Source of the DNA: Sulfurospirillum diekertiae
Lineage (GTDB): Bacteria; Campylobacterota; Campylobacteria; Campylobacterales; Sulfurospirillaceae
Assembly (NCBI RefSeq): GCF_002309535.1
Contig: NZ_CP023275.1
Coordinates: forward strand, 124,001-188,000
DNA: 64,000 nt
Direction of reading: 5' to 3'
Below the pieces are notes generated by a model. It searched no databases, was not told where the DNA came from, and was given only the letters and a program-made list of their open reading frames with translations. Positions 2,939-15,003 of the stretch are shown piece after piece. The stretch's first letter is position 1. Each line of letters opens with the position of its first letter. Both the position numbers and the translations under genes were made by a program.

Positions 2939-2970
2939 TAAAATAAGCTTTTTGAGTGAAAGGGTTGCGT

Positions 2971-4560
2971 ATGAATATTCGCACTAGGGTTAAAATTAGT
3001 TTTGTCCTGATCATAGTGATGCTCCTTTTTTTAGGAATGATTAGTGTTATTATTACGTATCAAATTAAGGAAAATAGTAATTTTAGAGAGAGTATCTCCT
3101 CTATTCTGTTGATGCAAGAGGGAATGAATGATATTATTCTTGAGAGTACAAAAACCACAGAAGTTCAAAAATTAGAACAATTGCATGCAGAATTTGCAAC
3201 CTATGAAAAACGTTTTGAATACTTGCGTACGAAATTATCTCAACATACACATAATTATCTTTCTAATGCACTCCTTCCCAATATACAAAAAGATAAAACA
3301 ATCAAACACTATCTCAACACTCTTTACACCAACGAGCATCGTCTTGAGCTAATGTATGATGACATTTTTAAACTTGAATGTGAAAAACTAGAATACGTTG
3401 CGATATTTAAAGCTCTTTATCCAGAAGAAAATAGTGCGCGTGTTGAAATTCAAGAACATATATTACAGAATAATCGTATAGAACAGATCAAAATACTTAG
3501 TGATCTTCGCTATTACAGCAAGGAAATGCTGTATCAGCATGGCAATAATGCCACAATGTTAAAGTGGCTCGCACCTATTGATAAACTGATTGATACAACG
3601 AAAAAAGGAACTGGAGATCTTCATGAAAATTTGATTCATTATAAAGAGATTGTACGTACTATTGCCGAAAAAACAATCAAAATTGAAGAAACAAAATTGA
3701 TTGAACATACAACGATTGATCAGGCTTCCGAAGTTTTGGATGATAACAAAAAAGTCAGTATTTCTTTAGAAGAGATGATCTCAGAACTCTCCAGTCGTTT
3801 TCTTGATCAGATGCGTTTGATTCAGCTTCTAGTGGGGATAGTGACCATTCTTTTTATCATTTTGCTTGCTATTAAGGTTTCTCGCAATGTCTCTCTCACT
3901 ATGGATGAGGTGGAAGCAAAAATAGAAGAGGGACTTGAAGAGGTTAATGCACTCAATCGTGAGATCGAAGATACACAAAAAGAGGTTCTTTTTACGATGG
4001 GTTCCATTGGTGAGACGAGGTCAAAAGAGACAGGAAATCATGTCAAACGTGTGGCTGAATATACCAAAATACTTGCCCTCTATTATGGGCTTGATGAAGA
4101 AGAGGCTGAAATGCTCAAACTCGCTTCCCCAATGCATGATATAGGTAAAATTGGTATTCCTGATAGTGTGTTAAATAAACCTGGAAGGTTTAATGAAGTA
4201 GAGCGGGAAATTATGAATACACATGCAATGCTCGGGTATGAAATGCTTAAACATTCACAAAGAGAACTACTTAAAATGGCAGCTATTGTGGCAAAAGAGC
4301 ATCATGAGCGCTATGATGGTAAAGGCTATCCTGATCAAAAAAGTGGCGAAGATATTCATATTTATGGACGTATTACGGCGTTAGCAGATGTCTTTGATGC
4401 GCTTGGAAGTGCAAGAATTTATAAACCTGCATGGGAAGATGAAAAAATCTTTGCATTATTTAAAGAAGAGAGAGGAAAACAGTTCGATCCAAAGCTTGTT
4501 GATATTTTCTTTGAGCATTTAGATGTTTTTTTAGAAACTCGTGAAAATTTAAAAGATTAA
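2971..4560 (+). CDS. HD-GYP domain protein with periplasmic helical sensor
   Basis: Probable c-di-GMP phosphodiesterase. With the start at 2971 (AAAGGG six bases upstream; an in-frame GTG at 2956 has no ribosome site) the protein has 529 residues: membrane helix 7-30, a long periplasmic region predicted largely helical, second membrane helix about 280-300, short coiled coil, then an HD-GYP domain. Metal-site motifs are present: HDIGK near 389, the LNKPG stretch, and HHERYDGKGYP near 444-454 containing the GYP triplet. It carries no GGDEF, EAL or receiver domain. Its input signal is unknown. Together with the PilZ protein at 15024 it shows that c-di-GMP signalling operates in this organism. 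Confidence 0.88.
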   Translation: MNIRTRVKISFVLIIVMLLFLGMISVIITYQIKENSNFRESISSILLMQEGMNDIILESTKTTEVQKLEQLHAEFATYEKRFEYLRTKLSQHTHNYLSNALLPNIQKDKTIKHYLNTLYTNEHRLELMYDDIFKLECEKLEYVAIFKALYPEENSARVEIQEHILQNNRIEQIKILSDLRYYSKEMLYQHGNNATMLKWLAPIDKLIDTTKKGTGDLHENLIHYKEIVRTIAEKTIKIEETKLIEHTTIDQASEVLDDNKKVSISLEEMISELSSRFLDQMRLIQLLVGIVTILFIILLAIKVSRNVSLTMDEVEAKIEEGLEEVNALNREIEDTQKEVLFTMGSIGETRSKETGNHVKRVAEYTKILALYYGLDEEEAEMLKLASPMHDIGKIGIPDSVLNKPGRFNEVEREIMNTHAMLGYEMLKHSQRELLKMAAIVAKEHHERYDGKGYPDQKSGEDIHIYGRITALADVFDALGSARIYKPAWEDEKIFALFKEERGKQFDPKLVDIFFEHLDVFLETRENLKD

Positions 4561-4944: not shown

Positions 4945-4973
4945 AGGTAGCGACACTCATCGCTACCTTTTTT
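4945..4973. terminator. Rho-independent terminator
   Basis: Nine-base-pair stem AGGTAGCGA / TCGCTACCT with a 6-base loop (4954-4959), followed by a T run on the plus strand. It sits between the convergent small secreted protein and methyltransferase genes and overlaps the stop codon of the latter. Confidence 0.85.
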
Positions 4974-5601
4974 GCAATATCGCTATTCTCTTACCATCCG
5001 TTTTCACAACTTCTAACCCACACTGTCGTGCCAAAATTTCAAGTGTTTTTGGAGTATAGAATATAATATGTGTTGGATCTCTTCGATACCACCATGTTAA
5101 AAAATGAGCTTTATCATCACTGTGAAAAAGTGTCATTAGTGCAATCATGCCATCAGGTTTAAGATGTTGGGCTAAAAGTTTTAATATTTCATGGGGGTTA
5201 GCTAAGTGCTCAAAAACTTCCGTCGAGGTAATGAGATCATAGGTTTGATCTTCAAAGCATTTTATAGGCTGGTAAAACTTATCATAATAATCGACGTGAA
5301 TACCTCTATTGGTCATAAGTTGGCTCAGGACGGGTGTTGGTCCAGAACCAAAATCAAGGGCTTTTTCTTTACATGTAAGATCATTCCAAAAGAAATCTAA
5401 AAAATCCTCGAACATCTTTACGTAACCTTCATTTTCTAACGAATTTCGATGATTGTTGTAGAGACTATGCTCTTTTTCCAGTGTAAGATAATAGGCTGAA
5501 TCAAGGCAAATACCGTGACAGTTTGAACAGTAGAAATAACGCTTTTGAAGTTGGGTGTCCTCCCATAATTTTATAGGATAATTGCAAATTTTACATTTCA
5601 T
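4963..5601 (-). CDS. SAM-dependent methyltransferase with N-terminal zinc ribbon
   Basis: 212 residues. The N-terminus has two Cys pairs (C3-x2-C6 and C25-x2-C28) plus C32, a likely zinc ribbon. A class I methyltransferase fold follows, with SAM-binding motif I ALDFGSGPTPVLSQL and STEVFEHL as the later acidic motif. This architecture is common among uncharacterised methyltransferases of Gammaproteobacteria and Campylobacterota. The substrate is unknown. It is monocistronic and convergent with the gene at 4622. A copy of the TTACATGTAA palindrome lies within it and is read Leu-Thr-Cys-Lys. Confidence 0.82.
   Translation of the reverse strand: MKCKICNYPIKLWEDTQLQKRYFYCSNCHGICLDSAYYLTLEKEHSLYNNHRNSLENEGYVKMFEDFLDFFWNDLTCKEKALDFGSGPTPVLSQLMTNRGIHVDYYDKFYQPIKCFEDQTYDLITSTEVFEHLANPHEILKLLAQHLKPDGMIALMTLFHSDDKAHFLTWWYRRDPTHIIFYTPKTLEILARQCGLEVVKTDGKRIAILQKR
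5369..5378. repeat. Iterated palindrome core, copy 2
   Basis: TTACATGTAA with flanks T and G (11 of 12 bases of the long form). It is inside the minus-strand methyltransferase gene, read Leu-Thr-Cys-Lys. Confidence 0.85.
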
Positions 5602-5727
5602 TTTTTAACTCTCTTTCCTATTTTTTCAAAAAAGCTATTTAAGTAAATAATTTTTTACTAATTAAGCATTATTATAAAGAATAGTTGATATTATATCTGC
5701 AAAATATTGTGAAAGCTAAAAACAAAG

Positions 5728-6891
5728 ATGCGTAAACTCATCGGAATTCTTCTTTTTGTATCTCTTTTTATGTTGCCATACTTCTTTGCCAATACAAAAT
5801 TTGAAGGCAATGTGATTCGTTTAGGGATGAGTGGACCTTTTAGTGGTGGGCTTACAAGCGTTGGCAATCAATTTTTACTAGGTGCGGAAATCTATCTTCA
5901 AAATTTAAATGATCACGGTGGTGTTTATGGAAGAAAGATAGAAATTATCGCTAAAGATGATCGTTATGAACCAAAAATTGCCATTGAAAATGTTGATGAG
6001 CTGATTAAAAAAGATAAAATTTTTGCTCTTTTTGGCATTATTGGCACACCCGTAGCTGAGGCTATTTTCCCCATTGCCATTGAAAAGCGGATACCTTTCG
6101 TAGGTGCGTATTCGGGAGCAGAATTTCTACGTAATCCTCCTAATCCCATTGTTCTGAATGCCAGAGCCAGCGATCTCGATGAAATTGAAAAGCTCGTACA
6201 ATATTATGCGGATGATCTTAAATATAAACGTTTTGCACTCTTTTATCAAAATGATAGTTATGGAAGAACGGGTCTTAGTGGTGTCAAAAATGCTCTTGCA
6301 AAACGTAATCTTGTGCTTGTAGGAGAGGGAAGTTATAAACGTAATACACTCTCTGTTGGAAATGCTTTGTACGAAATAGAGCTATGCAATCCTGAAGTTA
6401 TTTTGATGATAGGCTCTACGACACCAACAGCTGAGTTTATTAAGCGGGCGCGCAAAAGTCAAAAAATCCGTCAAAATATTCAATTTGGTCTCTTCTCATT
6501 TATTGAACCTAAACCGCTGATTGATTTTTTACATGGCAATGGTAAAGGGATCACTTTCGCACAAGTTGTACCTTCTCCGTGGACATCTGAAGTGGAAGAG
6601 GTAGAAAATTATCGTATGTTGATGCATAAATATTACCCTAAAGAAGAACTGGGGCATGTCTCATTGGAAGGATATTTTGCAGCGCGTATGATTGCTGAAG
6701 TTTTTAAAAGTTTAGGAAAAAAGTTTACAAAAGAAGAGTTTATTAAGGCGTTGGGAACATTTTCAAAAACATTAGACGAAACGGCCATTTCTAAAAATAG
6801 AGATGAGCGTTGTAAGTGTTTACATCGTGTCCATTTAAGTGAATATGTCGATGATGATTTTTACTCGGTAGGGCAAAACGATGAACACTAA
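5728..6891 (+). CDS. Periplasmic ligand-binding protein (LivJ-type), probable sensor partner
   Basis: 387 residues with an N-terminal signal sequence or anchor (residues 4-20), then a type-1 periplasmic binding fold. Typical features are the opening IRLGMSGPFSGGLTSVG, the stretch NDHGGVYGRKIEIIAKDD, and the later FALFYQNDSYGRTG. Proteins of this family bind branched-chain amino acids, amides or aromatic acids. No ABC permease or ATPase gene is nearby. Instead the 3' end overlaps a histidine kinase gene by 11 bases, so the protein more likely presents ligand to that kinase than feeds a transporter. The ligand is unknown. Confidence 0.88.
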   Translation: MRKLIGILLFVSLFMLPYFFANTKFEGNVIRLGMSGPFSGGLTSVGNQFLLGAEIYLQNLNDHGGVYGRKIEIIAKDDRYEPKIAIENVDELIKKDKIFALFGIIGTPVAEAIFPIAIEKRIPFVGAYSGAEFLRNPPNPIVLNARASDLDEIEKLVQYYADDLKYKRFALFYQNDSYGRTGLSGVKNALAKRNLVLVGEGSYKRNTLSVGNALYEIELCNPEVILMIGSTTPTAEFIKRARKSQKIRQNIQFGLFSFIEPKPLIDFLHGNGKGITFAQVVPSPWTSEVEEVENYRMLMHKYYPKEELGHVSLEGYFAARMIAEVFKSLGKKFTKEEFIKALGTFSKTLDETAISKNRDERCKCLHRVHLSEYVDDDFYSVGQNDEH

Positions 6892-8497
6892 TCCTTTGAG
6901 TGATTTTATGGGTAGCATCGATGAGATGACGATTGCGAAAAAGACAACGCTTCTTTTTCTCATTATGGTTGTGGGTATGTTTTTTATTGGTAGTTTTGCG
7001 CATATGAGTATTAACCGCATTAAAAATAATTTCGATATTTTATACACGAAGCGAATGCTTCCAACCATTCGGCTTGAAAACCTCAAAGATATTTATACCG
7101 TTAATGTGTTAGATACGATTCGAGATATTGAAAAAGGCATGATTAGTGCTCAAGAAGGTAAAACAGTGATTGCCCTTGCACAAGAGCTCATTAAAATCGA
7201 ACTTCAAGAGTATAAAAATAGTTTGAGTATTGACGAAAGTGACTGGCTTATCAAACTAGCGCGCTCATGGGGATTTATGGATGATCCTAGGCATAAACCA
7301 TTTTTTAAAACTAAAGAGGATGATATTTTAATTTCAAAAATTGAACAAAAAATCCATACGATTGATGGAATTTTGCTCAAAATGTTTAATTATTTTGAAA
7401 CAAAACAATCGCCAAAAGCAATTGACATATTACAAAATGAACTCTACCCCAGTGTCTATTCGATCAATATTGATCTGACAGGTTTGATCAATCTGAATTT
7501 AGACAGTGCGAAAGAGGGGTATGCGCGTACGGAAAAAGTTTATGATAATACATTTGAGTGGATTGTCGTAGCAACGATTGGTACGATTGCTTTTGCGGCA
7601 CTTTTAGCCATTGTGTTGTTACAAAATATTCGTCTACTTCATGCAAGGCTTGCTAAGATGGTAGATGCTAAAACCTATGAGTTGCAACAGCTTAATCGCA
7701 ACCTTGAGCTTAAAGTGCAGCATGAAGTGGATCAAAGTCGCCAAAAAGATCAGATCATGTTTCGTCAATCAAGGCTTGCTTCAATGGGTGAGATGATTGG
7801 CAATATTGCACATCAGTGGCGTCAACCGCTTAATGCAATTGTACTTATTATTCAAAGCTTTCAGATGAAACGTTTGGCTGGAATCGAATTAAGCGATGAA
7901 TTTATCGATAGACAGGTCAAAGAAGGCATTGCATTAGCGTCATTGATGTCACATACCATTGATGATTTTCGTAATTTTTTTAAGCCAAATAAAAATGAAG
8001 AGCATTTTAGTGTTAAAGACACCGTGGAGTATAGCCTGAAGTTGGTAAAAGCATATTATGCAAAATCAGGTATTGATATTTTTTTAAATTGTACTCAAGA
8101 TGTACAGATTAGTGGTTATCCCAATGAGTTTTCACAAGTGCTAATGAATCTTTTTTCTAATGCTAAAGATGTTTTAGAAGAGCGAAATATTGAAGAAAAA
8201 TATATTGAAATCATCATTACAAAACAAGCAAATAACGCAGTAATTAGTGTAATAGATAATGGCGGTGGGATTAGTGAAGAGGTCCAAGATAGAATGTTCG
8301 AACCCTATTTTACGACCAAACATAAATCCTCAGGCACAGGTATAGGATTGTACATGTCAAAACAAATTATTGAAAAACAGATGAGAGGCAGTATTATCGG
8401 AACGAATATATCGTATGTTTTTAGTAATGGCAAGCGTTACGAAAAATGTGCGATTATAACCATTTTGGTACCACTTGATAAAAAGGAGGATAAATAA
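6881..8497 (+). CDS. Sensor histidine kinase, HWRQPLN type
   Basis: 538 residues. Membrane helix about 22-40, periplasmic helical region about 41-226 resembling the four-helix-bundle sensor of chemoreceptors, second helix 227-248, coiled coil, then the kinase core. The phospho-acceptor is His311 in HQWRQPLNA. ATP-binding motifs follow: N-box NLFSNAKD near 423, DNGGGI near 459 and GTGIGL near 485. ATG 6881 overlaps the upstream binding-protein gene. With that gene and the response regulator downstream it forms a three-component sensing unit. All catalytic motifs appear intact. Confidence 0.93.
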   Translation: MNTNPLSDFMGSIDEMTIAKKTTLLFLIMVVGMFFIGSFAHMSINRIKNNFDILYTKRMLPTIRLENLKDIYTVNVLDTIRDIEKGMISAQEGKTVIALAQELIKIELQEYKNSLSIDESDWLIKLARSWGFMDDPRHKPFFKTKEDDILISKIEQKIHTIDGILLKMFNYFETKQSPKAIDILQNELYPSVYSINIDLTGLINLNLDSAKEGYARTEKVYDNTFEWIVVATIGTIAFAALLAIVLLQNIRLLHARLAKMVDAKTYELQQLNRNLELKVQHEVDQSRQKDQIMFRQSRLASMGEMIGNIAHQWRQPLNAIVLIIQSFQMKRLAGIELSDEFIDRQVKEGIALASLMSHTIDDFRNFFKPNKNEEHFSVKDTVEYSLKLVKAYYAKSGIDIFLNCTQDVQISGYPNEFSQVLMNLFSNAKDVLEERNIEEKYIEIIITKQANNAVISVIDNGGGISEEVQDRMFEPYFTTKHKSSGTGIGLYMSKQIIEKQMRGSIIGTNISYVFSNGKRYEKCAIITILVPLDKKEDK

Positions 8498-8498
8498 T

Positions 8499-9158
8499 AT
8501 GGATTTTAATGGATTAAAAGATTGTGTGGTGTTATATGTCGAAGATGAAAAATCAGTGCAAATACAAACGCAGATGATTTTAAAAGATTTTGTCAAAGAA
8601 GTATATATAGCATCCAATGGAGAAGAGGGGCTTAAAATTGCGCTTGAAAAAGATATTGATATTATTGTAACAGATATTTTAATGCCTGTGATGAATGGTA
8701 TTGAGATGCTCAAAAAGCTTAAGAATGAGTACCATCGTGATATTCCAGCGATCATTACAACTGCGTTTACTGAAACAGAATATCTCATTGAGGCGATTAC
8801 GCTTAAAGTTGATGGATTTATTATGAAACCGATTAATGTTAAAGATTTAATCAGTACTATTTATAGTGCGATGCTCCCTAAATTGCATAGTAAAGAGATT
8901 CAAGGGTGTTCTTTTATTATTGAAGGACTTGCCGCTCTTATAGGGGGTAAAAAAATTGAGATTTTAAAATATATCATCAGTCATTTGGATGATGATAAAA
9001 TCTTTAATGGCTCATACCAAGATATTATTGATAATATTGGCGTGAGTAAGCCTACGGTTGTACATATGTTTCAGCAACTTATCAAAGTGGGTATTTTGGA
9101 AAAAGTTAAAAATAAGATGTATCGTTTTAGAAACACCAAGCTTGTTGGAGATCAATAG
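8499..9158 (+). CDS. Response regulator with RepL-like winged-helix output
   Basis: 219 residues from ATG 8499, eight bases after AAGGAGGA. A start at 8475 would lie within the kinase gene and lacks a ribosome site. The receiver domain (1-115) has the acidic pair E15/D16, phospho-acceptor D59 in VTDILMP and K110. The C-terminal part (about 135-213) is not an OmpR, NarL or NtrC domain. Its pattern NGSYQDIIDNIGVSKPTVV followed by QQLIKVGILEKV looks like the winged helix of plasmid RepL proteins. It is the probable output of the upstream kinase; its targets are unknown. Confidence 0.88.
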   Translation: MDFNGLKDCVVLYVEDEKSVQIQTQMILKDFVKEVYIASNGEEGLKIALEKDIDIIVTDILMPVMNGIEMLKKLKNEYHRDIPAIITTAFTETEYLIEAITLKVDGFIMKPINVKDLISTIYSAMLPKLHSKEIQGCSFIIEGLAALIGGKKIEILKYIISHLDDDKIFNGSYQDIIDNIGVSKPTVVHMFQQLIKVGILEKVKNKMYRFRNTKLVGDQ

Positions 9159-9677
9159 ATGAGGAAAATAGTTTTAGTTTTATTGTTAGGGATATGGAGT
9201 GCTCTTATGGCAAGTGAGGTTGTTTTTGAAACAACCCAAGGAACGATTGTGTTTGCATTGAAGCCTGAGGTAGCACCGAAAGCATGTGAAAATTTTGAAG
9301 GTTTGGTGAAAAAAGGATACTACAATGGCATTACTTTTCATCGCATTATTAAAGGCTTCATGATTCAAGGTGGTGACCCTACGGGAACAGGACGTGGTGG
9401 TGAATCCATTTATGGGAAACCATTTGAAGACGAATTTAAACCCAATATTGTATTTAACAAACCGGGAATTTTAGCTATGGCGAATGCTGGTCGCAATACG
9501 AATGGAAGTCAATTTTTTATCACAACTGTTCCAACACCGCACCTCAACGGTAGGCACACTATTTTTGGAGAAGTGGTTGAAGGTATGGATGTTGTTCGTA
9601 AGCTTGAAAATATTACAACTGATGGTAGAGACATGCCGATGCAACCACAAAAAATTCTCAAAGCGTATTTAAAATAA
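9159..9677 (+). CDS. Periplasmic peptidyl-prolyl cis-trans isomerase, cyclophilin type
   Basis: 172 residues: signal peptide (cleavage near MA-S at about 18-19), then a compact cyclophilin domain. Active-site landmarks include GITFHRIIKGFMIQGGDPTG, NTNGSQFFIT and LNGRHTIFGEV, which carry the catalytic Arg and the Phe/Gln/His pocket residues. The ATG directly follows the response-regulator stop codon, so it may be co-transcribed with that system, though a functional link is not evident. It assists folding of secreted proteins. Confidence 0.92.
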   Translation: MRKIVLVLLLGIWSALMASEVVFETTQGTIVFALKPEVAPKACENFEGLVKKGYYNGITFHRIIKGFMIQGGDPTGTGRGGESIYGKPFEDEFKPNIVFNKPGILAMANAGRNTNGSQFFITTVPTPHLNGRHTIFGEVVEGMDVVRKLENITTDGRDMPMQPQKILKAYLK

Positions 9678-9712: not shown

Positions 9713-10063
<351 letters not shown>

Positions 10064-10158: not shown

Positions 10159-11340
10159 ATGGATCAATCTCATATGCACTATATTATTGACACTTTCTTC
10201 TTACTTTTCTCTTCTGTTCTAATTATCTTTATGGTTCCGGGCTTTGCAATGCTTGAAGCGGGTCTTGTTCGTAGCAAAAATGTTTCGGCTGTACTTACAG
10301 GCAATGTCATGCTTTATGCCATCACTTCTTTTATTTTTTTACTCTGGGGTTACAATAACATGTTTGGCGGAAATGGCTTCTTCCTTGAAGGTGTGACTAC
10401 AGATGGATATAGTCCTTATGCCTATTTTTTATTTCAAATGGCATTTGTGAGTAAAACGGTTTCCATTATGAGTGGAGGCGTTAGTGAGAGAATTCGTATT
10501 ATTCCTTTTATGATTTTTGCAGTATTAATGAGTGGTTTTATCTATCCTATCGTTGGAAATGCTATTTGGGGTGGAGGATTTTTAAAAGAGGTCCATGATC
10601 TTGCAGGGTGTACTGTTATTCACTCCGTGGGAGGTTGGGCATTATTGGCGGGTATCTTGGTTTTAGGTGCTAGACGAGGTCGTTATAGCAAAGAAGGACA
10701 GATACGAGCAATTCCTGCTTCCAACATCCCACTGGTAACACTGGGAGGTATGCTTCTTTGGATTGGTTGGTTTGGTTTTAACGGAGGAAGCGCTTTTCAT
10801 ATCTCCAGTGTTGAACATGCTGACCTTGTGGGCTTAATTATCGTCAATACTAATACAGCAGGGCTCGCGGGTGCAATTATAGCTGCAATGATTGTGTATG
10901 TACAGTATCGAAAGCTTGATATTACGATGATCCTAAACGGTGCGTTGGGAGGACTTGTTGCCATTACTGCAAGCGCAGACGTAGTTGGCCTTTGGGAGCC
11001 AATTATCATTGGTGCTGTTGGCGGAACATTGGTCGTTTTTGCGATTCCTCTTTTTGATAAATTCAAAATCGATGATCCTGTGGGTGCACTTTCTGTTCAT
11101 TTGGTCAATGGTATTTGGGGCACGATTGCCGTAGCGCTTTTTGCTGATTTTTCACTGGTTACGCAACTCAAGGGAATTGCTATAACAGGGCTTTTTACCT
11201 TTCCTGTCTCATACGTTGCCTTTGTAATTATCAAAAAAGTCATTGGGCTTAGAAGTGATGAAGAACATGAGTATGTAGGGCTTGATCTTGAAGAGTGTGG
11301 CTTGGAAGCGTATCCAGAATTTATTAAATCAAAAGTCTAA
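10159..11340 (+). CDS. amt: Ammonium transporter
   Basis: 393 residues and about 11 membrane helices. The paired pore histidines of the Amt/Rh family are at H155 (AGCTVIHSVGGW) and H314 (SVHLVNGIWGT); family motifs near the N-terminus include PGFAMLEAGLVRSKN. The start ATG 10159 follows AAAGG. Downstream of the PII gene, it would be regulated by that protein. No signal peptide is apparent beyond the first membrane helix. A convergent terminator follows. Confidence 0.95.
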   Translation: MDQSHMHYIIDTFFLLFSSVLIIFMVPGFAMLEAGLVRSKNVSAVLTGNVMLYAITSFIFLLWGYNNMFGGNGFFLEGVTTDGYSPYAYFLFQMAFVSKTVSIMSGGVSERIRIIPFMIFAVLMSGFIYPIVGNAIWGGGFLKEVHDLAGCTVIHSVGGWALLAGILVLGARRGRYSKEGQIRAIPASNIPLVTLGGMLLWIGWFGFNGGSAFHISSVEHADLVGLIIVNTNTAGLAGAIIAAMIVYVQYRKLDITMILNGALGGLVAITASADVVGLWEPIIIGAVGGTLVVFAIPLFDKFKIDDPVGALSVHLVNGIWGTIAVALFADFSLVTQLKGIAITGLFTFPVSYVAFVIIKKVIGLRSDEEHEYVGLDLEECGLEAYPEFIKSKV

Positions 11341-12502: not shown

Positions 12503-13510
12503 ATGACACATACACTTTTTTCTCCTTTAGATATGCATTTGCATTTACGTGATGAAGCGATGCTCAAAGTGGTTGCTCCACTGAGTGCACACAGTTTTGC
12601 GGGCGGTATCATCATGCCCAATGTTGTTCCTCCTATTACGACCATTGAAGCGGTACTTTCCTATAAAGAGCGCATTATAAGCGCTATTGGCAACAATGTA
12701 TTTGATCCTTTGATGACACTTTTTTTTCGTTCGGATTATACGCGTGAATTTTTAGAAAAAGCAGCTTTACATGTAAAAGCGTTGAAGCTCTATCCTTCTG
12801 GCATTACAACCAATTCTGAGGGCGGTGTGGCAAGCATGGATATTGAGACATTGCGCCCTGTTTTGGAAGCGATGAGCGATCTTGGGCTTGTTTTATGTGT
12901 GCACGGTGAAACAAATGGTTTTGTAATGGATCGTGAAAAAGAGTTTGGCTCCATTTATGAAAGTTTAGCTTCTGCCTTTCCTCGCCTTAAAATCGTTATG
13001 GAGCACATTACCACCAAAGAGAGTGTGGCACTTTTGGACAAATATGAAAATCTTTATGCAACGATCACACTTCATCACCTCTTGATAACGTTAGATGATG
13101 TTGCCGGTGGAATGCTTCAACCTCACCTTTTTTGTAAACCCATAGCCAAGCGTTATGAAGACCGCGATGCACTTTTACATGTAAGCCTTAAAGCACATCC
13201 TAAAGTGATGTTTGGAAGTGATTCTGCGCCGCATCCGATTCATAAAAAAGAGTGTTGCGGTTGCGCGGCAGGTGTTTTTACGGCACCGATTGCCTTGCAA
13301 GCTCTCGTAGAACTATTTGACAAACATAACGCATTAGCTTCACTACAAGCGTTTGTCAGTAACAATGCACAAACAATTTATGGCTATAAACCTCTATATA
13401 AAGAGGTTATTTTAGAAAAAGTACCCTTTTACGTCACACACAGTTATGCTGACGTTGTCCCTATGTTTGCTAACGAAACATTGGCTTGGAGTATTACACA
13501 TGTCGTATAA
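12503..13510 (+). CDS. pyrC: Dihydroorotase
   Basis: Pyrimidine biosynthesis: cyclises carbamoyl-aspartate to dihydroorotate. 335 residues from ATG 12503; longer readings upstream cross the promoter and the divergent gene. Metal-binding landmarks of the short (class II) dihydroorotases are present: HLHLRD near the N-terminus, the Lys of [10 protein letters not shown] (carboxylated in the family), HGE, MEHITT and FGSDSAPH. Its 3' end overlaps the response regulator gene by 11 bases, which suggests coupled expression although the functions are unrelated. Confidence 0.93.
12766..12777. repeat. Iterated palindrome TTTACATGTAAA, copy 4
   Basis: Exact copy within pyrC, read Leu-His-Val-Lys, just ahead of the conserved ALKLYPSG segment. 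Confidence 0.9.
13175..13184. repeat. Iterated palindrome core, copy 5
   Basis: TTACATGTAA with flanks T and G, the second copy in pyrC about 400 bases after the first. It is read Leu-His-Val-Ser. Confidence 0.85.
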
Positions 13511-14165
13511 AATTCTTATTTTAGAAGACAACACACTGCTTCTTCAAACACTGGAAGATTTTTTAGGTGGGCATGATTATATTTGTACTTTGGTTTCAAG
13601 CGGAAAAGAGGCACTGAAACAGTGCTATGAAAACAAGTATGATCTTTATCTGTTAGATGTTAAAGTTCCAGATCTTAGTGGGTTCGATTTTTTAAAGGAA
13701 CTTCGTGCATCGGGCGATCGTACCCCTGCTATTTTTGTGACATCCCTAAGCGATCAAGAGAGCCTTACAAAAGGTTTTATGTTAGGTGGCGATGATTATA
13801 TTAAAAAGCCTTTTGATCTTGGAGAACTTTTGTTACGCATTAAAGCACTTTTAGCACGTGCAAAAGGGATTGTGGATGATTGGCTCGAAATTGATGATGA
13901 GTATAAGCTCAACCTTGCACGTAAACGTCTTTTTCACAATCAAGAAGAGCTTGACATCAATCTCAAAGATTTTGAATTGCTCTATTTGTTGGTCAAAGAG
14001 CGAGGTAAAGTTGTGACCAAAGAGATGATCCATGAAAGGCTTTGGAGCAGTAGTGAAGAAATCAATGAAGGATCAATCAGAGTTTACATCAATAATCTGA
14101 AAAAGATTTTTGGCAAAGATAGCATTTTAAATATCCGAGGAATTGGGTATCGTTTTGAGAAGTAG
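13500..14165 (+). CDS. OmpR-family response regulator
   Basis: 221 residues from ATG 13500, inside the last codons of pyrC. The receiver domain has E9/D10, phospho-acceptor D53 (LLDVKVPD), T81 and K102/K103. The C-terminal winged helix of the OmpR/PhoB type ends with the usual [23 protein letters not shown] pattern. It pairs with the overlapping kinase gene. Regulated genes cannot be inferred; the next gene encodes a PilZ protein, which hints at surface or motility control but is not proof. Confidence 0.93.
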
Positions 14166-15003
14166 TGATAGAATTTTTTTTATTCGCTCCGTTTTAGCTT
14201 TTAGTGTTGCTATCTGTTTTGTAGCCCTCTTTGGCATTGCTTTATGGGAATATCTAGGAGAAAGCAAAGTTTGGGTTATTGTACCTTTGCTGGTTACTTC
14301 TTTAATCATTGGGTATCTCATCGTCTCTTATACCCTTTCATCTTTGTTTAAAACAAACCGTTTTCTCGATATTTTGCTCAAAGACACACTTCATGAGCTT
14401 AACATTCCTCTTTCTGTCATCAATGCAAATCTTCAAATGCTTCAAGCCGATGAGCAAGATGTTAAAAAGCTCAAGCGCTTAGAACGCATTGAATTAGCCA
14501 GTAAAGACTTATATACGCTTTATCAAGAGGTGGATTATTACATTAAAAAAGAGATTCAATCCGATGTTCGAGAGAAATTTTATCTGGATGAACTCGTAAT
14601 GAAAGTCGTTGAAAAACAAAAAGAGATGGCTAATGGGGTGGATATTTTTTATAATGTTTTACATGTAGAGCTCTTTGCGGATAAACATGGTCTAGCCAAA
14701 GTCATTTCTAATTTGGTTCATAATGCTTTGAAATACAACCAAAATCATAACCCTCTTTCTATTTTTCAAGAAGAAGATACGCTTATCATTAAAGACCAAG
14801 GTATTGGTATGAGTGAGGCAGAGCTCTTTTTGGCATTTAATCGTTATTATCAGGTGGATACGACAAAAGAAGGATATGGTATAGGGCTCAGTCTTGTAAA
14901 GGCATATTGTGATGAGTTTAAAATAGCCATGCGTATTAATTCTCAAAAAAATGTGGGTACAGAGGTCATATTGGATATAGCATATCTCTTGAATAAAAAA
15001 TGA
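14143..15003 (+). CDS. Sensor histidine kinase with minimal periplasmic loop
   Basis: Partner of the upstream OmpR-type regulator, overlapping its gene. No ATG start exists near the 5' end; TTG 14143 or TTG 14155 must serve, with GAGG at 14137 close by, so the start is uncertain. Membrane helices about 11-35 and 43-66 leave only some seven residues outside, so it probably senses the membrane or cytoplasm. The phospho-acceptor is H84 in LHELNIPLSV; ATP-site motifs are NLVHNALKYN, DQGIGMS and GYGIGLSLVK. Confidence 0.88.
   Translation: MGIVLRSSDRIFFIRSVLAFSVAICFVALFGIALWEYLGESKVWVIVPLLVTSLIIGYLIVSYTLSSLFKTNRFLDILLKDTLHELNIPLSVINANLQMLQADEQDVKKLKRLERIELASKDLYTLYQEVDYYIKKEIQSDVREKFYLDELVMKVVEKQKEMANGVDIFYNVLHVELFADKHGLAKVISNLVHNALKYNQNHNPLSIFQEEDTLIIKDQGIGMSEAELFLAFNRYYQVDTTKEGYGIGLSLVKAYCDEFKIAMRINSQKNVGTEVILDIAYLLNKK

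Follow-up and report, generated by a model that had tools for sequence, protein, structure and literature searches.

We analyzed a 64,000-nt stretch of the chromosome of Sulfurospirillum diekertiae (contig NZ_CP023275.1, 2,814,086 bases; positions 124,001 to 188,000, hereafter the window), in which three consecutive plus-strand genes encode a LivJ-type binding protein (BP, 5728-6891, 387 aa), a four-helix-bundle histidine kinase (HK, 6881-8497, 538 aa), and a response regulator (RR, 8499-9158, 219 aa). The first-pass annotation had described these genes as a binding protein-kinase-regulator trio, and the Pfam domains of all three confirm that the trio is real. BP matches Peripla_BP_6 (E 1.5e-48). 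In HK, 2 hydrophobic segments, recognized by eye, flank the sensor (4HB_MCP_1, 2.9e-9), which is followed by HisKA (8e-5; 23.1 bits, below the cut-off of 26.9) and HATPase_c (2.6e-17); neither Response_reg nor Hpt has a Pfam match in HK at E <= 0.5. RR joins a receiver (3.3e-22) to a RepL-like winged helix (22.4 bits against a gathering cut-off of 20.3, and 25.1 bits for the output domain alone). H311, N427, D459, G462, G463, G485, G487, and G489 of HK are invariant in 29 aligned kinases (20 BP-linked and 9 without BP), as are D16, D59, T88, and K110 across the RR alignment, so the H-box His and the N and G boxes of a histidine kinase and the Asp/Thr/Lys of its partner receiver are all in place. 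Our best explanation, which comparative sequence evidence makes probable, is that BP, HK, and RR would act together as a three-component signaling unit.

The BP and HK genes overlap by 11 nt (6881-6891). An overlap had also been proposed between HK and RR, and this part of the first-pass annotation did not hold: RR begins at ATG 8499, preceded by AAGGAGG at 8483-8489, which makes a TTG start at 8475 unnecessary. Since RR begins at ATG 8499, HK and RR do not overlap and are separated by a 1-nt gap. In the orthologs at loci L057, L060, L072, and L075, the earliest start codon is the Met equivalent to this ATG.

The same genome contains a complete paralogous BP-HK-RR set, whose response regulator (RR2) is the only other match above the RepL cut-off and whose BP is 40% identical to that of the window. 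This second trio sits between a divergent formate dehydrogenase (fdh) operon and selA-selB. The gene names come from NCBIfam (selA 1.3e-157; selB 2.1e-89), in which the best match of the 186-aa start of fdhA was Fdh-alpha (1.4e-32); Fer4 and Nitrate_red_del proteins are further neighbors. In the formate dehydrogenase gene next to this second trio (L034, 1-2794), the reading frame is interrupted by a TGA with a His codon directly after it. This is the pattern to be expected of a selenocysteine codon and agrees with the adjoining selA-selB.

A wider survey covered 20 regions around BP matches from 17 other genomes, picked by hand for spread. A homologous BP-HK-RR set was found in 17 of them, of which 15 adjoin the start of an fdh operon, 1 has the window gene order, and 1 lies elsewhere; in the other 3, BP adjoins an HD-domain protein, a hybrid kinase, or a HAMP kinase. 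Across the phylum, a BP of this subfamily is present at E <= 1e-45 in 69 of 397 genomes. The window also encodes an HD-domain protein (2956-4560) that shares 66% identity across 223 aa with the HD-domain protein at L173 (6021-7898), the neighbor of a BP of the same subfamily. HD-domain receptors may thus be further partners of the BP family.

Between the BP gene and a divergent methyltransferase gene lies a predicted RR operator, AGTAAATAATTTTTTACT (5642-5659, plus strand), of the palindromic form RGTAAA-N6-TTTACY, with a putative -10 element, TATTAT, 29 nt beyond it (5689-5694, plus strand). The palindrome was first seen by reading trio promoters, which are not independent evidence for it. 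The window holds 1 exact match (0.07 expected), and the whole genome holds 3: at both trio promoters and ahead of a second fdh-like operon, which starts with a Nitrate_red_del chaperone gene followed by the start of a molybdopterin enzyme. This last site, a hybrid AGTAAA...TTTACC, was not used in deriving the pattern. For a count across loci, 61 upstream regions were collected, some from duplicate loci, and 54 were counted after dropping 7 with a gap below 40 nt or a stretch below 50 nt. An exact operator was found in 13 of the 25 regions of window type and 12 of the 29 of fdh type, against 0.005 and 0.015 expected from shuffles. Among 18 window-type regions with a slightly relaxed site, 17 have the -10 element either 28-31 or 18-19 nt behind the operator, and since these 2 spacing classes are about one helical turn apart, they suit an activator.

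Sites also precede genes outside the trios, and these, like the one at the second fdh-like operon, are independent of the promoters that gave the pattern. In 32 loci, 10 selD-like genes were found by motif and 6 have an exact promoter site, one of the 6 being confirmed as selD by NCBIfam; the 4 without a site are all from Sulfuricurvum, whose trio promoters lack it as well. Another site lies before an FdhT gene (NCBIfam 7.9e-179) with a TusA-like partner, and others precede a phosphonate-type BP, an [FeFe]-hydrogenase-like gene, an HGD-D-family protein, and an HD/GGDEF protein. The operator stands just upstream of a gene in 2 Sulfurospirillum genomes (L226, 1704-3301; L232, 1644-3201), and the L226 product is the HD/GGDEF protein, possibly a second-messenger branch of the regulon. 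By these sequence matches, the predicted target list is clearer for the fdh-type trio than for the window trio. The first-pass annotation had assigned no regulon to RR; the shared predicted operator and the paralog at fdh narrow the candidates.

Several observations count against this assignment of the operator. The exact site is absent from 12 of the 25 window-type and 17 of the 29 fdh-type upstream regions. Of 56 loci that carry a site, 14 were recounted: 21 of their 33 sites are clear of genes and 12 touch one (including selA at or near its start in 5 loci and the BP gene in 4), so that conserved coding sequence can give rise to the pattern too. A second set of 20 loci comprised L219, L220, and 18 (L221-L238) of 20 hand-chosen regions, 19 of them from among the matches listed and 1 from the own genome; here 12 of the 20 sites are clear of genes, 1 touches a gene end (L228), and 7 lie inside genes. 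Genome-wide, the own genome has 3 sites against 5 for the reversed control, there is no clear excess in 121 genomes, and the counts do not separate genomes with a trio from those without; with one mismatch allowed, the pattern matched at 73 places and the control at 114. Finally, the promoters of the window and of L062 have a second, nearer TATTAT. Because neither the genome-wide counts nor the one-mismatch search gives an excess, we used only exact sites in place, and it is only the placing of the sites, not their number, that is telling.

An alternative is that 5642-5659 is bound by RR2, in which case the formate regulon would include the window trio, whose own RR would act on targets elsewhere. 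RR and RR2 have the invariant SKPT of the recognition helix in common, a single consensus fits both operators, and the genome has no other exact site of the window form, AGTAAA-N6-TTTACT. The outer bases differ, however: the window promoter has A/T where the fdh promoter has G/C. The window form recurs at the trio promoter in at least 14 genomes among the matches listed (19 searched). We consider binding by RR2 rather unlikely, and the assignment of the site to RR is itself a prediction.

How BP relates to HK can be approached through kinases of the HK family that are found both with and without BP. A tree of 24 kinase+RR rows implies at least 4 changes of BP presence, in either direction. Among 16 genomes, of unstated completeness, whose kinase has no adjacent BP, 14 are without any BP relative at E <= 0.001; the remaining 2 have an fdh-type BP plus a weak second match (G044) and a weak match (G059). 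Sensor length differs without overlap, at 170-181 aa in all 20 BP-linked kinases and 120-167 aa in all 9 without BP. The segment equivalent to HK residues 116-152 (7226-7336, plus strand), our predicted candidate for the BP-docking segment, is 34-38 aa long in all 20 BP-linked kinases; in kinases without BP it is 7-19 aa in 5 of 9 and 32-37 aa in 4 of 9. At L085, where the methyltransferase and HK genes have no BP gene between them, this segment is shorter by 27 residues; the contig has the length of one in G043, a genome listed as 100% complete. Among pairs with 60-70% kinase identity, the sensors are 36-66% identical when both kinases are BP-linked (44 pairs) and 23-33% identical when one is without BP (16 pairs), so that at equal kinase identity sensor identity is about halved. 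In 16 sets, the partial distance correlation between BP and sensor, beyond kinase and RR, was 0.69, with 0 of 2000 permutations as high.

The first-pass annotation had suggested that ligand-loaded BP controls the kinase. This gains indirect support from the comparisons of sequences, with contact itself a prediction; we favor control of the kinase by BP because the sensor is shorter and diverged where BP is missing. Some of the same data weigh the other way. Nearly all of the 16 mixed pairs come from L085 and L132, one for each trio type, and 4 of the 9 kinases without BP retain the 116-152 segment. The partial distance correlation between BP and RR in the same 16-set test was -0.65, and because it is negative the test must be considered rough. 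Related sequences are not independent, with some loci on the same contig (L044/L076, L042/L068, and L043/L085). Helicobacter kinases have a similar kind of sensor and no BP, which means that the sensor can work alone.

This last point raises the alternative that HK senses directly through its four-helix sensor and that BP is merely cotranscribed and has another role, as HK-RR pairs of the same family do occur without BP in Helicobacter and other relatives. Direct sensing does not account well for a sensor that is shortened and diverged where BP is absent, or for a BP subfamily that adjoins a signaling gene in all 20 regions (a homologous kinase in 17 and a hybrid kinase, a HAMP kinase, and an HD-domain protein in 1 each). 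We regard it as unlikely.

BP could instead supply a Liv-type ABC transporter encoded elsewhere, and its membership in Peripla_BP_6, a family made up mostly of transport proteins, is a point for this. The first-pass annotation had noted a LivJ-type BP without transport partners, and this description stands: no permease or ATPase gene was found among the ORFs around BP in the window. No Liv-type permease was recognized directly beside BP in the gene lists of the 20 regions; L170 and L172 have a phosphonate-type ABC set some genes off, its own BP included. Each of the 3 Liv-type permease pairs recognized in the genome lies next to a BP gene of its own, which speaks against a BP that only feeds a distant ABC transporter. 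The N-termini point the same way. BP carries a hydrophobic segment near its N-terminus, with residues 4-21 as the best window of 18 residues, and by eye no AxA or lipobox cleavage site is evident in trio BPs, in contrast to the 3 transporter-linked BPs of the same genome, which show signal-peptidase-like AxA sites. Trio BPs are probably tethered to the membrane, to judge from these sequences. A transporter role for BP is very improbable, and the pattern of BP absence, the change in the sensor, the distance correlation, and the N-terminus together favor a dedicated signaling BP.

The nearest solved relative of BP by sequence is 4kv7 (E 1.4e-73), and comparison with the LivJ pocket yielded no ligand for BP. 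A CxC motif near the C-terminus (CKC in the window BP) occurs in 12 of 21 aligned BPs, all window-type, and not in fdh-type BPs; it is possibly redox- or metal-linked. At L037, in a one-contig genome (G010), the window-type BP gene is split into 2 frames (5981-6421 and 6453-7121), and HK and RR are apparently intact.

The output domain of RR (residues 131-219; 8889-9155, plus strand) was modeled alone because fold searches with the whole RR filled with receiver matches. The model is a winged helix (H-H-E-H-H-E-E, pLDDT 80.8) whose nearest solved fold is CodY (8c7t; Z 11.7, rmsd 2.4 Å, 87 aligned), with CRP-type domains also near; the best Foldseek match, the sole one below 0.001, had an E value of 7.5e-4. 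At the sequence level, RepL was matched by all 39 scanned output domains at E <= 0.05 (best 1.1e-10), and TrmB (38), HTH_Crp_2 (36), and HTH_36 (34) were nearly as frequent in the same 39. The Pfam scan gave RR no output domain of the OmpR, NarL, or NtrC type, and there was no Trans_reg_C at E <= 0.5. The RepL-like output proposed by the first-pass annotation can be kept as a sequence resemblance outside the standard output families, limited to the winged helix: RR covers RepL positions 51-113, that is, 63 of 164, and is joined to a receiver, so it is not a full-length RepL protein. The suggested structural comparison was informative to the extent that it gave a CodY/CRP-like model; no RepL structure was among the fold-search matches listed, which says nothing on the fold of RepL. 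We describe the modeled domain as a general winged helix of the CodY/CRP/ArsR kind, a statement about fold only that claims no family. That RR is a replication-linked factor is highly improbable in spite of the RepL matches and weak matches to PHROG replication-initiation families, among which the window domain reached a best E of 1.4e-4, since the winged helix is the only shared feature, the gene context is signaling and metabolism, many sites lie in promoters, and nothing in the RR evidence points to plasmid replication.

RR is well conserved in the genus, with full-length matches (83-100% identical) in 23 of 24 genomes including its own; the 24th, in 280 contigs, has a match of 84% over residues 1-162. 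In one of these 23, a genome of the same species (G015, L006), the RR match holds an internal TAA, giving a 213-aa reading in which the winged-helix end is lost.

The methyltransferase gene that shares the operator region with BP (4963-5601, minus strand) is a conserved neighbor, as are a ppiB-like cyclophilin gene with a signal-peptide-like start (9159-9677, plus strand), which begins at the base next to the RR stop, and a glnK-like gene for a P-II protein (9725-10063, plus strand). An ammonium transporter gene follows (10159-11340). The order methyltransferase / BP-HK-RR(-ppiB)-glnK is conserved in other genera. In several genera the gene for a cyclophilin whose N-terminus resembles a signal peptide directly adjoins RR or overlaps it, and at L078, a locus without BP, this gene lies closely behind RR. 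An association with nitrogen, suggested by glnK and the ammonium transporter, was set aside as a guess; the sole exact operator of the window is at 5642, and none lies there. About 4 kb downstream is a second two-component pair (13446-15003), whose response regulator (13446-14165) is of the ordinary OmpR type (Trans_reg_C match).

Our comparisons show the gene content of the trio, its conservation and paralogy, the domain assignments, the conservation of the operator, and the link between BP presence and sensor form. From them we infer tethering, docking, phosphotransfer, dimer binding, activation over repression, which RR binds, and the ligand class, in the following scheme. BP, tethered to the inner membrane, would bind a small solute in the periplasm, and loaded (or empty) BP would set kinase activity by docking on the four-helix sensor, with HK residues 116-152 as the probable contact. 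HK would then phosphorylate RR at Asp59, and RR dimers would bind AGTAAA-N6-TTTACT at 5642-5659, centered about 50 bp upstream of the presumed transcription start. RR would thereby switch on transcription of the trio operon, ppiB included, and perhaps of the divergent methyltransferase gene, resulting in positive autoregulation. The sister trio would use the same operator type to run formate dehydrogenase and related genes. More tentatively, BP-gated kinases with RepL-like regulators may form a widespread Campylobacterota family that switches transcription of the genes for formate dehydrogenase, for selenocysteine synthesis, and for hydrogenase; in Sulfurospirillum, 2 trios with different BPs might converge on one operator type and integrate 2 solutes at shared promoters.

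The control of formate dehydrogenase named in a review of respiratory regulation in Campylobacterota, as far as the portion available to us goes, is post-transcriptional, through FdhTU (PMC6682613). A trio divergent from fdh, together with a palindrome before fdh, selD, hydrogenase, and FdhT genes, provides a concrete transcriptional candidate, with the window trio as its sister. The recurrent absence of BP with an altered sensor amounts to a natural experiment on communication between binding proteins and kinases. Residues 116-152 make the proposed BP-kinase docking testable by mutation, and the predicted operator common to both trios does the same for the target genes.

In the open-licence literature, we recognized no description of the trio or of a RepL-type response regulator among the matches listed. 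Within the genus, the available excerpt on PceS-PceP describes two-component control of a respiratory gene set, a point of likeness, with the difference that PceP is of the OmpR family and binds a CTATW direct repeat; the excerpt mentions no BP (PMC7755780). CuaD of Ruminiclostridium cellulolyticum is, in the part of the source seen, a dedicated solute-binding protein whose gene likewise adjoins two-component genes, in a sugar system of a Gram-positive (PMC10384115). The trio BP shares the Peripla_BP_6 family and expected fold of the LivJ/HAAT binding proteins but is without adjacent permease or ATPase genes and without an evident cleavable signal peptide. RR resembles the RepL plasmid replication proteins (PF05732) in its winged-helix sequence, as all 39 output domains do, and differs in the partial match and in the attached receiver. 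The closest parallel is TorT-TorS-TorR of Escherichia coli, made up of a periplasmic binding protein, a hybrid kinase with a helical-bundle sensor, a receiver, and an Hpt domain, and an OmpR-type regulator. Both systems have a BP gene beside a kinase gene, a helical-bundle sensor, and a response regulator. In the window, HK is without receiver or Hpt, RR is not of the OmpR type, and BP is of Peripla_BP_6 and apparently membrane-anchored. The trio works like TorT-TorS-TorR but is not a member of that system, since it has neither the hybrid kinase nor the OmpR-type regulator.

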